The notes below the pieces were generated by a model. It was not told the DNA's origin. It worked only from the letters and a program-made list of their open reading frames with translations, and searched no databases. A program made the translations under genes and the position numbers. A DNA stretch of 64,000 bases. It comes from an uncultured Burkholderiales bacterium (GTDB lineage: Bacteria; Pseudomonadota; Gammaproteobacteria; Burkholderiales; Burkholderiaceae_C). The stretch is taken from contig CAIQBO010000006.1 in NCBI GenBank assembly GCA_903870145.1, forward strand, positions 62,001 through 126,000, written 5' to 3'. Shown piece by piece: positions 12,272 to 61,333 of the stretch. The stretch's first letter is position 1. Each line of letters starts with the position of its first letter.

Positions 12272-12796
12272 ATGCTGACCGAAGACGGTAAACACCTTTA
12301 TGTGAGCTACGACGAATACCACAACCTGATTGAAAAACTGGCCATCAAAATTTTTCATTCAGGTTGGGAGTTCGACACGATTTTGTGTCTTGCTCGCGGC
12401 GGTATGCGGCCTGGCGACATTTTGTCGCGCATTTTCAACAAGCCACTGGCGATCATGTCGACCAGTTCATACCGTGCCGATGCTGGTACGGTTCAAGGCC
12501 ATTTGGACATTGCCCGCTTCATCACCACACCCAAAGGTGAAATTGCAGGGCGCGTGTTGCTGGTAGACGACTTGGCCGATACAGGGCACACCTTGAATGC
12601 TGTGGTCAATTTGCTCAAAACCAATTACAGCCCCATCACTGAACTTCGCACCGCAGTCATTTGGACAAAAGGGGTGTCTGGTTTTCAATCCGACTATTCA
12701 GTGGATTATTTGCCTAGCAACCCCTGGATTCATCAACCCTTTGAGGGCTATGACAGCTTGAGCCCTGAAAAGTTAATTGAAAAATGGAAAGTCTGA
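12272..12796 (+). CDS. purine-type phosphoribosyltransferase
   Basis: This 174-residue type I phosphoribosyltransferase has the PRPP-binding signature VLLVDDLADTGHTL (about 92-105) and an N-terminal CLARGGMRPGDIL loop. Such proteins transfer phosphoribose from PRPP to a nucleobase. The position right after purA suggests a salvage role, and xanthine or hypoxanthine-guanine are the likely bases, but the specificity hood (YLPSNPWIHQPFE) does not let me choose. The start ATG 12272 is preceded by AGGAGAG. The stop is 15 bases before the lyase gene. Confidence 0.85.
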   Translation: MLTEDGKHLYVSYDEYHNLIEKLAIKIFHSGWEFDTILCLARGGMRPGDILSRIFNKPLAIMSTSSYRADAGTVQGHLDIARFITTPKGEIAGRVLLVDDLADTGHTLNAVVNLLKTNYSPITELRTAVIWTKGVSGFQSDYSVDYLPSNPWIHQPFEGYDSLSPEKLIEKWKV

Positions 12797-56284: not shown

Positions 56285-57293
56285 ATTGGCCCCTTGGATT
56301 GCGGCTCAAAACTTGGCGCTGCTTCAGCAAAATGGCCACGCTTGGCTGTTGCACGGGCCTTCGGGCCTGGGTCAATATGAATTGGCTTTGTCCATGGTGC
56401 GCGCTTGGTTGTGTGAGGCACCTGATTCTGTGCAGCAAGGCGCTTGCGCTCAATGCCCCAGTTGCCATGCCATCGAAGTGCGCGCTCATGCGGATTTATG
56501 TGTCCTGATGCCAGAGACCGTGATGCTGGAGCTGGGCTGGCCATTGAGTGAAAAAGCGCAAAACGAAATTGATGAAAAAAAACGCAAACCCAGTCGTGAA
56601 ATTCGCATCGAAGCCATGCGAGATGCCATCGAGTTTTCTCAGCGCACCAATGCCCGCGGGCAAGGCAAAGCGGTGCTGGTTTACCCAGCAGAACGCATGA
56701 ACCACGTGACTGCCAATGCCTTGCTTAAAACTTTGGAAGAGCCCCCGGGCGATGTCAAGTTTGTATTGGCAACACACGCTGCCCACCAACTTCTGCCGAC
56801 CATTCGAAGCCGTTGCCTGGCCCACACCATGCGTTGGCCAATTGGCTCTGAGGCCTTGAGCTGGCTTGCAGCACAAGGCTTTTCTGCGCATGACGCTCAG
56901 GTGCTCCTGCAGGCAGCAGGCGGGCGCGCAGACGATGTTTTGCGTCATGTGGCATTGGGCCAATCACCGGCTTGGTGGGCTGCATTTCCCAAAGCCATGG
57001 CGCAGGGTGATGCAGCGTGCCTGGCCAACTTGCCACCTGCAGAAGTGATCGATGCTTTGCAAAAATTGTGTCATGATGTTTTGATGCGCGAAAGCGGCGT
57101 TGCCACGCGGTTCTTCAGCCAGCAAGACTTGCCCCATGTGCACCCGAGCTTGGCCACATTGACCGCATGGTTCAAGCGCTTGAGCCTTGCCGCACGAACA
57201 GCCGAGCACCCCTTCAATGCTAGCTTGATGCTCGAAGCTTTGAGCTCTGAGGCCAGCCAAACTTTACGTGCCAGTGCAGCACGAACAAGCTGA
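56271..57293 (+). CDS. holB: DNA polymerase III delta' subunit
   Basis: HolB is the clamp-loader subunit delta'. The 340-residue product has a degenerate P-loop, GPSGLGQYE, in which the Lys is replaced by Gln; delta' is normally inactive as an ATPase. The zinc site is CAQCPSC with an upstream Cys, and [15 protein letters not shown] and IRSRC (sensor/arginine-finger region) follow. The start ATG 56271 overlaps tmk; a longer frame from 56205 lies inside tmk. The tatD start overlaps the stop (TGATG). A pilZ gene often found between holB and tatD in betaproteobacteria is absent. Confidence 0.92.
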
Positions 57294-58108
57294 TGTACAC
57301 CGACTCCCACTGCCATTTGTCTGCCCCCTCACTCATGAGCCAAATGAGCGATGTTCGAAGCGCCATGCAAGCGGCGCAAGTCACGCGCGCGCTGTGCATT
57401 TGCACCACCATGGAAGAGTTTGACGCTGTGCATGGCTTGGCATTGGCCTACGATAATTTCTGGTGCACGGTGGGTGTGCACCCCGACAATGAAAATGTGC
57501 ACGAACCGACAATGGATGAGTTGCTTGAAAAGGCGAAAAACCACAAGGTTTTGGCTGTCGGTGAGACTGGTTTGGACTACTACCAAATGCAAGAGCGCAA
57601 AGGCGGCCGATCGGTGATCGACATGGAATGGCAGCGCGAGCGTTTTCGCACGCACATCCGCGCTGCTCGCAGCGCCCAATTGCCACTGGTGATTCACACC
57701 CGTGACGCTTCGGCGGACACATTGGCGATTTTGAAAGAAGAGGGTGAAATCGGAGATGCGCAGTCTGCTGGCGGGGTTTTCCACTGCTTTACCGAATCCA
57801 AGGAAGTTGCGCGCGCAGCCTTGGACATGGGCTTTTATATTTCTTTTTCAGGCATTTTGACCTTCAAATCTGCACAGGATTTGAGAGATGTTGCCAAATG
57901 GGTGCCGGATGACCGCTTATTGATAGAAACCGACAGCCCATATTTGGCCCCTGTGCCATACCGAGGCAAGACCAATACACCTGCCTATGTGCCTTTTGTT
58001 GCGCAGCAATTGGCAGATATCAGGTCCACCGATGCCCACAGCATCGGGCGCCTGACAGATCTGAATTTTGATCGGCTTTTCACTAAGCTATCAGCCATTT
58101 TGTCCTAG
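57293..58108 (+). CDS. tatD: TatD-family metal-dependent hydrolase
   Basis: This is a 271-residue TIM-barrel nuclease/hydrolase of the TatD family. The metal ligands are visible as DSHCH near the N-terminus, Glu in VGETGLDYY, His in LVIHTRD, His in VFHCF and Asp in LIETDSPYLAP. TatD proteins are 3'-5' exonucleases implicated in DNA repair. The start shares a base with the holB stop, so it is translationally coupled. An ankyrin protein gene follows after 21 bases of AT-rich DNA. Confidence 0.94.
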   Translation: MYTDSHCHLSAPSLMSQMSDVRSAMQAAQVTRALCICTTMEEFDAVHGLALAYDNFWCTVGVHPDNENVHEPTMDELLEKAKNHKVLAVGETGLDYYQMQERKGGRSVIDMEWQRERFRTHIRAARSAQLPLVIHTRDASADTLAILKEEGEIGDAQSAGGVFHCFTESKEVARAALDMGFYISFSGILTFKSAQDLRDVAKWVPDDRLLIETDSPYLAPVPYRGKTNTPAYVPFVAQQLADIRSTDAHSIGRLTDLNFDRLFTKLSAILS

Positions 58109-58129: not shown

Positions 58130-58759
58130 ATGTTAAACTTTAAATTGATTAAAAAATATGTTGTTTTAATTGGTTTTTTAATTTCATTTTCTGCTAATTC
58201 AGGCTCTTACGAGGATTTTTTCAAGGCACTTAAAACCAACGATCTGAACGTGGCCCGCCAACTCCTGGTGCGCGGTTTTGATCCCAATACGGTCGATTTA
58301 GAAGGCCGCGCAGCTTTGCTGGTGGCTTGGCGCTTCGAATCTTTGGGGGTTTTAGACCTGTTGCTGGACTGGCCCGGCACCAAAGCCGAAGTGCGCAATG
58401 AACTGGACGAAAGCTTGCTGATGTTGGCAGCACTGAAAGGACAAACCAACCTGGTCCAAAAGCTAATCAGCCGCGATGCTGATGTCAATAAGCCGGGCTG
58501 GGCGCCTTTGCATTACGCAGCCACGGGCGGTCACCCTCAAATCATTCAATTGCTACTGGATCAAAGCGCCTACATTGACGCTGAATCACCCAATGGAACA
58601 ACGCCCTTGATGATGGCCGCACGCTATGGCAATGCCGCTTGCGTCAAACTGCTACTTGACGAAGGCGCAGACGTGCTGTTGAAGAACCAATTGGGCTTAA
58701 CTGCACTGGACTTTGCCCATGCCGGCAATCGCCCTGACGCGATTGCATTGCTTCGATAA
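58130..58759 (+). CDS. secreted ankyrin-repeat protein
   Basis: This 209-residue protein has a signal peptide or N-terminal anchor (MLNFKLIKKYVVLIGFLISFSANSGS) and about five ankyrin repeats from residue 30 to the end, such as GWAPLHYAATGGHPQIIQLLLDQSAYIDAES and GTTPLMMAARYGNAACVKLLLDEGAD. The first 25 codons are very AT-rich (AAATTGATTAAAAAA and TTAATTTCATTTTCTG) compared with neighbouring genes, while the repeats look ordinary. Repeats of this sort mediate protein binding; partner and role are unknown. The stop codon is 2 bases before the dif-like site. Confidence 0.82.
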   Translation: MLNFKLIKKYVVLIGFLISFSANSGSYEDFFKALKTNDLNVARQLLVRGFDPNTVDLEGRAALLVAWRFESLGVLDLLLDWPGTKAEVRNELDESLLMLAALKGQTNLVQKLISRDADVNKPGWAPLHYAATGGHPQIIQLLLDQSAYIDAESPNGTTPLMMAARYGNAACVKLLLDEGADVLLKNQLGLTALDFAHAGNRPDAIALLR

Positions 58760-58760
58760 T

Positions 58761-58788
58761 ACTTCATACGATGTATATTATGTTAAGT
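58761..58788. other. dif-like XerC/XerD recombination site
   Basis: The 28-bp site is ACTTCATACGA (XerC-side arm), TGTATA (central hexamer) and TTATGTTAAGT (XerD-side arm). The centre and XerD arm agree with E. coli dif at 16 of 17 positions; the XerC arm is divergent, as it often is between lineages. It shows partial dyad symmetry (7 of 11 arm positions). It lies at the point where gene orientation switches from mostly + to all -. The comparison with E. coli dif is from memory. XerC and XerD are not encoded in the window. Confidence 0.72.
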
Positions 58789-58858: not shown

Positions 58859-61333
58859 TCAATCAACCGATAGCGCCTGGCGATGCACTGCAGGCACATC
58901 CTTGAGCTTGAGCGGTCGCAATTGAACCTGCGCCCATTCATCGCGCATGCTTTGATAGCGGCGCGAAAAAGGATGGCCACTTTGGCCGGCTTGGTAAATG
59001 AACTCCGAGTTCTCCAGATTGGACAAGTCATAAACAGCACGCATCGAGGCGGCATGACGGCTGGCAAACGGCATGCTGGCACTGTTGGTCCAGTACTGGC
59101 CCACGTTGACTGTGAATGCATCGCCCGCACTGGGCACGCTCACATCAAACCAAGGTGCAAAAGCTTTGACGTTGCCAAAAGGCTTGTGGCTGCTCAAGGC
59201 CGGATGTGCTTGGCCCCAGTTCCAAAGGCTTGGATCGCGCCCTTGCATGCTAACAATGCGATCCAAAGCACTGTCAAAAGCGGCATTCATCTGCGCCTGG
59301 CAGCCTTTATTGCCACACCAGGCAGGATCGTTGCGCTCCAAAATGCCTTCGACAGCAGCTCGAAAATGGCGCTTGCCAAACAATGCTTTGAACCGAGCTT
59401 CGCCCAATTTGGGCTTGATCAAAGCTTGGGTCAACTCGTCTGCCCACACGGCATAAATCAATGCCGCTGCGGATTCACGGGACATTTCACCTTTAAAGGT
59501 GGAGAGCAAAGCCTTGGCTTTTGGCGCCAGTGCATGGGACGACTCCAGCTTTTTCATGGCGGGTAACAAGCGCACAGCAGCCAAAGACAATGCATCACCC
59601 TGAATACTTTTCATGCTGCTCACATTGTGAATGGGTTTGTCTTTGAGCAATGCGGTGATTCGGTCAAAACGCTCTGGGTTGGTCCAGTCGTGGCCAATGA
59701 AGTGTTTGTAGCCTGAGGGCAATATGTTTTGGTTGGCGGTGGCCAAGCCCCCTGTTGCTTGAATTTGTGCCGTAGATTGCTCAGGTGTTTTCTCATAAGG
59801 CAACCACCCTTGCCAATCGTATTTCGCAAGCCAACCTGGCGCAGGCGCCAAGCCTTGGAGGTCATTGGTAGCATGCCTGATTGGCACTTTGCCAACGGCT
59901 TTGAACAACACTTGGCCGCGCGTATCGGCCATCACAACGCTTTGCATGGGCGCTAGATGATCTGCATAGGCAACTTTCAAATCATCCACCGATTTGGCAA
60001 AGTTAGCATTCATGCCCGCTAACACGGTGCGATTGTCTGGGTCTAAGGCAGACCATTTCAAAGCCACCGCATAACGGTCCATATTCAAAAATGATCGATA
60101 GATTGGCTGCACATCGCTGATGACTGGGCCATGCCGTGTTGTGCGAACGGTGATGCGCTCATCGCCCTGCCCTTTGATTTTAAAAACTTCTTCGCGTGTC
60201 TGAAATGCCTGCGGACCGTCAATGCCTTTGTACTGTGTGCTGGTTAAATTTTGACCTGGGTTTGAAGCGAGAATCAACTCTTCCAAATACAAATCTTGCA
60301 CATCCGGGCCGGTGTTGGTAAAGCCCCAAGCCACTTGGTCGGTGCGACCCAAAACCACGAATGGAAGTCCTGGCAAACTCGCACCCACCACCTCCAAGGC
60401 CGCATGCGCTGTGCCATCTGGGAATTTTCCTGCGGGTGCATGCAAGCCCACAAAATACCAAATTGCAGCAGCGCTCAAGCCCAGATGAGGGTCATTGGCC
60501 AACAAGGCTTGTCCGCTTTGCGTACGCGAGCCAGGCAGCACCCAGTTGTTACTTCCTTTTCCTTCCACAACGCCAAAATCCAAAGTGCTGTCTTGTGTTG
60601 CGTTGAATGCAACACCAGGCTTGGCATAAACGCCTAAGCTGGCATAAAGGCCTGCCAAATCAACAGATGTGCCTTTGCTCAGACCTGGGTAAGGCGGAAT
60701 CAATTGCCACAACTCGTCGGTGCTCAAGACTTGCGCAGACATCAAACGCGCGAACTCTTGACCCCAGTTGCCGCCCAAGTCCAAGGCCATCATCAAACTC
60801 CAGGCCACGCTGTCTACAGGCGTCCAAGCAGGTGCAGAAAGGCCAGGATTCAAACCCAAAAGAACAAACTCTGGCGCGCGCCACTGACCACTGTCGTAGC
60901 CGGCTTGAATGCCTTGAGAATAGGCTTGCAATGCCAGTTTTGCATTGGCGGGCAATCGGTCGTATTGCGCTTGGGCTGTTTGCACAATGCCCAGGGTTCG
61001 TATCAACTTGTCAGTGTCCAAGGTGCTGGGGCCAAACCAAGCTGACAACTCGCCATGCATCAATTGACGGTTAAACGCCAACTGCCAACCGCGTTCTTGC
61101 GCATGCACCAAGCCCAGTGCACGCCACGCGTCCATGGGGGTGGCAGCGTGAATGTGCGTGACATCAGAGGTATCGCGCACAACTTGCACCGGCGCAGAAA
61201 TGCCGGCCAATTTGAACTGCCCATCGAGCAAGGGCATAGAGCGCAGCAAGTACACATTGAGAACACCCCAAATCAAGAGCAGCAACATGACCAAGGCCAG
61301 GACGGATCGAAGCAACCATTTTTGAATTTTCAT
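58859..61333 (-). CDS. penicillin acylase-family (Ntn) hydrolase
   Basis: This 824-residue N-terminal-nucleophile amidohydrolase belongs to the penicillin/acyl-homoserine-lactone acylase family. A membrane anchor or signal (LLRSVLALVMLLLLIWGVLNVYLL, residues 7-30) precedes an alpha-chain region. The autoprocessing site is GKGSNNW, giving Ser261 as the N-terminal nucleophile of the beta chain. Conserved beta-chain parts include LANDPHLGL and AWGFTNTGPDVQDLYLE. Substrates could be acyl-homoserine lactones, other N-acyl amides or beta-lactams. It is the first gene right of the dif-like site, on the - strand. Confidence 0.9.
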   Translation of the reverse strand: MKIQKWLLRSVLALVMLLLLIWGVLNVYLLRSMPLLDGQFKLAGISAPVQVVRDTSDVTHIHAATPMDAWRALGLVHAQERGWQLAFNRQLMHGELSAWFGPSTLDTDKLIRTLGIVQTAQAQYDRLPANAKLALQAYSQGIQAGYDSGQWRAPEFVLLGLNPGLSAPAWTPVDSVAWSLMMALDLGGNWGQEFARLMSAQVLSTDELWQLIPPYPGLSKGTSVDLAGLYASLGVYAKPGVAFNATQDSTLDFGVVEGKGSNNWVLPGSRTQSGQALLANDPHLGLSAAAIWYFVGLHAPAGKFPDGTAHAALEVVGASLPGLPFVVLGRTDQVAWGFTNTGPDVQDLYLEELILASNPGQNLTSTQYKGIDGPQAFQTREEVFKIKGQGDERITVRTTRHGPVISDVQPIYRSFLNMDRYAVALKWSALDPDNRTVLAGMNANFAKSVDDLKVAYADHLAPMQSVVMADTRGQVLFKAVGKVPIRHATNDLQGLAPAPGWLAKYDWQGWLPYEKTPEQSTAQIQATGGLATANQNILPSGYKHFIGHDWTNPERFDRITALLKDKPIHNVSSMKSIQGDALSLAAVRLLPAMKKLESSHALAPKAKALLSTFKGEMSRESAAALIYAVWADELTQALIKPKLGEARFKALFGKRHFRAAVEGILERNDPAWCGNKGCQAQMNAAFDSALDRIVSMQGRDPSLWNWGQAHPALSSHKPFGNVKAFAPWFDVSVPSAGDAFTVNVGQYWTNSASMPFASRHAASMRAVYDLSNLENSEFIYQAGQSGHPFSRRYQSMRDEWAQVQLRPLKLKDVPAVHRQALSVD

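Follow-up and report, generated by a model that had tools for sequence, protein, structure and literature searches.

Two described dif sites are the nearest counterparts of the one reported here. That of Escherichia coli has a XerC arm with the inner end ATAA and a dyad of 6 of 11 bases, carried mainly by the inner CATAA/TTATG; that of Rhodoferax ferrireducens comes from a species of the same family as the source genome. The table of Carnoy and Roten 2009 (PMC2731167) places the dif of R. ferrireducens DSM 15236 at 12,767 b from the GC-skew maximum, and the sequence entered there shares 27 of its 28 bases with the present site, the one difference lying at position 5 of the XerC arm (C here, G there). 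As a near-identical site is already published in that table, the present one belongs to a known kind. Where the same paper deals with palindromes, it describes the palindromic bases of dif as frequently the inner ones, a tendency from which the present site, with its dyad in the outer arms, departs. A search of a library of open papers found none that treats dif and XerC in Limnohabitans, or the dif site and XerD in Comamonadaceae.

The site, its neighbours and the recombination machinery

The window, by which we mean the whole stretch of 64,000 bases that was analysed, corresponds to positions 62001-126000 of contig C6 in a draft genome of 2,887,910 bases and 66 contigs, from a freshwater bacterium that is probably a Limnohabitans. 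At 58761-58788 of its plus strand lies the 28-base sequence ACTTCATACGATGTATATTATGTTAAGT, laid out as ACTTCATACGA-TGTATA-TTATGTTAAGT (11-6-11), which we regard as almost certainly the chromosomal dif, with the XerC arm on the left and the XerD arm on the right, at which dimers would be resolved with the aid of FtsK. This identification draws on the sequence itself, its uniqueness in the draft, the switch in GC skew, the polarity of octamers, the genes for three proteins and conservation in relatives. The site is non-coding and falls between the stop of the ankyrin-repeat gene (TAA, 58757-58759) and the stop, at 58859, of the convergent acylase gene (Table 1); a single base separates it from the TAA, where the earlier note had counted two.

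Table 1. Features at and around the dif site, with the islands found at the same locus in two relatives
Feature	Location	Strand	Remarks
tatD-type hydrolase gene	57293..58108	+	TIGR00010 E 1.6e-78; precedes the ankyrin gene and belongs to the conserved neighbourhood
Ankyrin-repeat protein gene	58130..58759	+	Pfam Ank_2 E 8e-61; conserved XerC-side neighbour of dif
XerC-binding arm of dif, ACTTCATACGA	58761..58771	+	inner end ACGA, family type; identical or near-variant arms in relatives
Central region of dif, TGTATA	58772..58777	+	same as the E. coli centre
XerD-binding arm of dif, TTATGTTAAGT	58778..58788	+	one base off E. coli TTATGTTAAAT
Penicillin-amidase family (acylase) gene	58859..61333	-	Pfam Penicil_amidase E 2e-186; neighbour on the XerD side
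G013 island	G013:C10:667063-741542 (L045-L049)		about 74.5 kb between two half sites; lies on the side of the ankyrin gene that faces the acylase gene
G054 island	G054:C2:247017-325140 (L050-L054)		about 78 kb between two dif-like sites

Set against the E. coli site, the present one has the same layout, an identical centre and 10 of 11 bases of the XerD arm, and the agreement claimed earlier for centre and XerD arm together, 16 of 17 positions, is borne out. The XerC arm, in contrast, shares only 4 of 11 bases. The partial dyad that had been reported between the two arms is likewise present, at 7 of 11 positions, mainly in the outer ACTT/AAGT, whereas that of E. coli is mainly inner.

Two Phage_integrase proteins are encoded in the genome (E <= 0.001). 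The first is XerD (TIGR02225, 354 bits against a cut-off of 329.6), and the second has XerC as its best family, with 320 bits for TIGR02224, 15 bits under the cut-off of 335. There is also one FtsK with a gamma domain (FtsK_gamma E 3.7e-28). By analogy with what is established for E. coli and Vibrio, from which we infer binding, strand order and activation by FtsK at dif, XerC would be bound at the left arm and XerD at the right one, and FtsK, loaded on GGGNAGGG-type octamers aimed at dif, would bring together at the septum the two dif sites that a chromosome dimer contains. Its gamma domain would then trigger XerD to exchange the first pair of strands, and XerC would finish the crossover to give monomers. 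The site is an ordinary one and, apart from the arm type of its family, confirms textbook biology.

Uniqueness of the site and the replication terminus

Within the window, the right 17 bases (TGTATATTATGTTAART) have one match at up to 3 mismatches, with 0 mismatches, and a second half site at that threshold is absent; in shuffled versions of the window, the mean number of matches was 0.03, and 3 of 100 shuffles contained one. The full 28-mer, searched with up to 3 mismatches, has a single match in the draft genome and none in the control, and the only other half-site match at up to 3 mismatches lies on contig C40 and has 3 mismatches, the reversed-pattern control giving 2. The assembly, reported to be 99.99% complete, thus holds one dif, and the search for a better match that the earlier note had proposed returned none elsewhere in the 2.89-Mb draft with either the 28-mer or the half site.

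The cumulative GC skew of contig C6 (162,013 b) reaches its maximum at 119,911, which is 850 b from dif at 120,761; the skew averages +0.026 on the left and -0.034 on the right, and when 2-kb blocks were shuffled, an equally strong change point arose in 0 of 5000 trials. The KOPS-type octamer GGGCAGGG points toward dif in 12 cases on this contig and away from it in 1, and the polarity of all GGGNAGGG octamers is weaker (15 toward, 8 away), so that it is GGGCAGGG that carries the octamer bias there. On this contig dif marks the replication terminus and gives the window its orientation: left of 58.8 kb the leading strand is plus, right of it minus.

Because the source genome is a draft in 66 contigs, for which the skew is that of contig C6 rather than of the whole chromosome, a relative of the same genus (G006), assembled as one contig of 2,948,795 b (2.95 Mb), was sampled in 40 windows of 20 kb. 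The skew is positive in all 21 sampled windows from 367 kb to 1.82 Mb, before dif, about zero in the window that holds dif and negative in all 13 later ones. The octamer GGGCAGGG follows the same division, with 19 plus and 1 minus copies before dif and 1 plus and 15 minus copies after it. The dif of this relative lies at 1,829,354. The local skew maximum, computed over 60 kb, is 5.3 kb off at 1,834,647, and dnaA, at 260,574, is separated from dif by 53% of the chromosome. In the remaining five windows, which sample 1 to 314 kb, the sign of the skew varies, the two below 93 kb being positive and the next three negative, and the octamer count is 1 plus and 2 minus; the switch on the origin side falls between 314 and 367 kb, as against 261 kb for dnaA. 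The skew test proposed earlier, made in part on contig C6 and on the sampled relative, came out in favour of the site, and the earlier reading of the site as the chromosomal dif at the terminus is supported by skew and octamer polarity as well as by uniqueness, machinery genes and conservation. Counting against that reading are the draft state of the source genome, the genomes and ankyrin loci described below in which no dif match was obtained, the XerC score under its cut-off, the weaker polarity of the full set of GGGNAGGG octamers and, in the relative, the mixed skew below 314 kb and the distance between dnaA and the switch on the origin side.

Conservation of the locus and islands at dif in relatives

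At up to 2 mismatches, the XerD half is present in 51 of 60 genomes of the genus, the source genome included, and in 33 of the 36 of good quality, again with the source counted; 9 of the 60 (3 of the 36) are unmatched at this threshold. Full sites were read in 29 of the 50 matching relatives, those with fetched loci, and the XerC arm ends internally in ACGA in 25 of them, in ACAA in 2 and otherwise in 2, both of which are island ends with a foreign arm. The 20 bases on either side of dif mostly differ among these relatives, and conservation of the site, the remaining point that had been put forward for checking, is thus seen against largely diverged flanks. Among 29 same-genus loci that extend about 1.5 kb to each side, homologues of tatD and the ankyrin gene accompany the site at 21, and a homologue of the acylase (penicillin-amidase family) at 13.

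The association with the ankyrin gene was also surveyed from the gene itself, with the best 80 kept of 307 stretches that encode a relative of the ankyrin protein, in records named Limnohabitans, Rhodoferax, Variovorax, Ramlibacter, Polaromonas, Tibeticola and others. A dif-like site (XerD half with up to 3 mismatches) follows within 1 kb downstream at 45 of these best 80 loci, as against 1 of the best 80 in the opposite-strand control, and is absent from that interval at 35 of the best 80, among them both Polaromonas loci; 6 of the best 80 have less than 400 b downstream. In one record, titled as an Akkermansia muciniphila MAG (L166), a dif of the family type follows the ankyrin gene, and the title is probably a mislabel.

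Two relatives, G013 and G054, carry at this locus islands of 75-78 kb with conjugation genes, each between two dif-like sites (Table 1). In both, the XerC arm is of the native type at the site adjacent to the ankyrin gene and foreign at the far site. The acylase gene of G013 lies 2.5 kb beyond the far site, past another open frame, and that of G054 was matched in part, 6.5 kb beyond the far site, where the fetched sequence ends. Ten proteins per island were scanned against Pfam, and nine from both islands against NCBIfam. The G013 island encodes VirB4, TrbI, a VirD4-type protein, an ArdC-type polyvalent protein and a restriction enzyme of a XamI-type restriction-modification system, together with a second, full-length XerD (361 bits, above the cut-off) that is 81% identical to the host XerD, also present, and an additional weaker Xer-like recombinase. 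The G054 island encodes a MobH relaxase, TraD and topoisomerase III, as well as two Xer-like tyrosine recombinases that score below all curated cut-offs.

These islands resemble the gonococcal genetic island, likewise an element at dif and an IMEX, as described in the sections of PMC5357621 that treat it. According to the same sections, the divergent arm of the gonococcal element is that of XerD, whereas in G013 and G054 it is that of XerC, and the elements treated there exploit the Xer proteins of the host, whereas the G013 island brings a XerD of its own. Judged by titles and the openings of abstracts, no paper on dif islands with their own XerD was recognised in the open library searched. 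The source genome differs from IMEX, as that paper presents them, in showing, in its draft assembly, a single dif and no flanking pair; an IMEX attachment site would need two dif-like copies flanking an insert, and was rejected as a description of the present site.

Such islands bear on the question of whether the 28 bases might be a mimic of dif, left behind by a phage or island that integrates there, rather than the host's own site. That relatives use dif for insertion, with a second half site and foreign left arm 75-78 kb away in G013 and G054, lends this explanation some ground. We nevertheless consider it very improbable, given the single copy in the draft genome, the XerC arm usual for the family, the conserved tatD-ankyrin-dif-acylase neighbourhood and a window that has no second half site at up to 3 mismatches.

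Further traces of insertion at dif were noted in other genomes. In G059, a foreign-arm site (C16:25387) stands beside an end sequence that by eye is like that of G054, and a site of the native type is on another contig. Pairs of dif-like half sites in the same orientation, about 7-12 kb apart and with one foreign XerC arm, occur among the matches listed in the order-wide scan (G181:C1, G219:C2 and G063:C1), and similar pairs with the same spacing of about 7-12 kb in the family sample (G283:C16 and G302:C1). A spacing of 7-12 kb would fit insertions of the filamentous-phage type at dif.

The XerC arm in the family

In the sample of the family, a dif match was obtained in 86 of 130 genomes and none in the other 44, with a pattern that was different from, and partly stricter than, that used for the genus. 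The table drawn from it keeps 89 rows (85 genomes, of which four contribute two rows each) and is conditioned on a match of the XerD half. Ten rows judged unlikely to be sites were removed by hand (four from G281, two from G379 and one each from G320, G314, G285 and G376), one of the G281 rows having an ACGA arm and possibly being real. The XerC arm ends internally in ACGA at 50 of the 89 sites, in ACAA at 29, in ATAA at 1 (G312, a member of the family) and otherwise at 9. ACGA or ACAA is thus found at 79 of the 89 tabulated sites, in contrast to the ATAA of E. coli. The arm is the normal form for the family and no peculiarity of the source genome, so the earlier description of it as diverged holds with respect to E. 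coli, from which 7 of 11 bases differ, and fails with respect to the family.

The same seven differences could be taken to mean that the site is a degenerate and inactive dif, with a decayed XerC arm and dimers resolved elsewhere. This has even less to recommend it than a mimic left by a mobile element and is most unlikely, since relatives keep the same arm or a near variant despite mostly diverged flanks, the table of 89 family sites holds 5, the present one among them, that agree in all 28 bases, and the draft holds no better candidate. Chance resemblance within an AT-rich gap can be dismissed as negligible: chance does produce half sites with 2 mismatches in many genomes, as the controls of the order-wide scan indicate, but the present one has zero mismatches, against 0.03 matches expected even at 3, and its position, octamer polarity and synteny, and the conservation of the XerD half in the genus, speak against it.

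The difference of the family's dif from E. coli in the XerC half, seen on the sample, matters for searches that query genomes with the E. coli dif. One possible, though rather doubtful, reading is that in the Comamonadaceae the inner XerC arm was recoded from ATAA to ACGA or ACAA (a direction that we infer), that the dyad moved to the outer arm and that XerC recognition changed to match, the locus being in addition a place where conjugative islands, one of them with its own XerD, insert repeatedly. The family arm type is seen on the sample, and a matching change in XerC was not seen in the alignment. In that alignment, of XerC from 30 genomes picked by their arm (18 with AC and 12 with AT inner arms), 0 of 293 scored columns showed the residue typical of the arm group in each of the three out-of-lineage genomes (G065, G113 and G312), in what is a small and hand-picked sample. 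As no column tracks the arm in all three, differences such as those near XerC residues 241-250 may reflect lineage alone.

The order-wide scan matched 164 of 200 genomes, with controls that also match often in some genomes, and serves here as a source of examples only. Among the matches listed there, G065 and G113, both outside the family, have ACGA arms, and many rows from other families, uncounted, have arms of the CATAA type.
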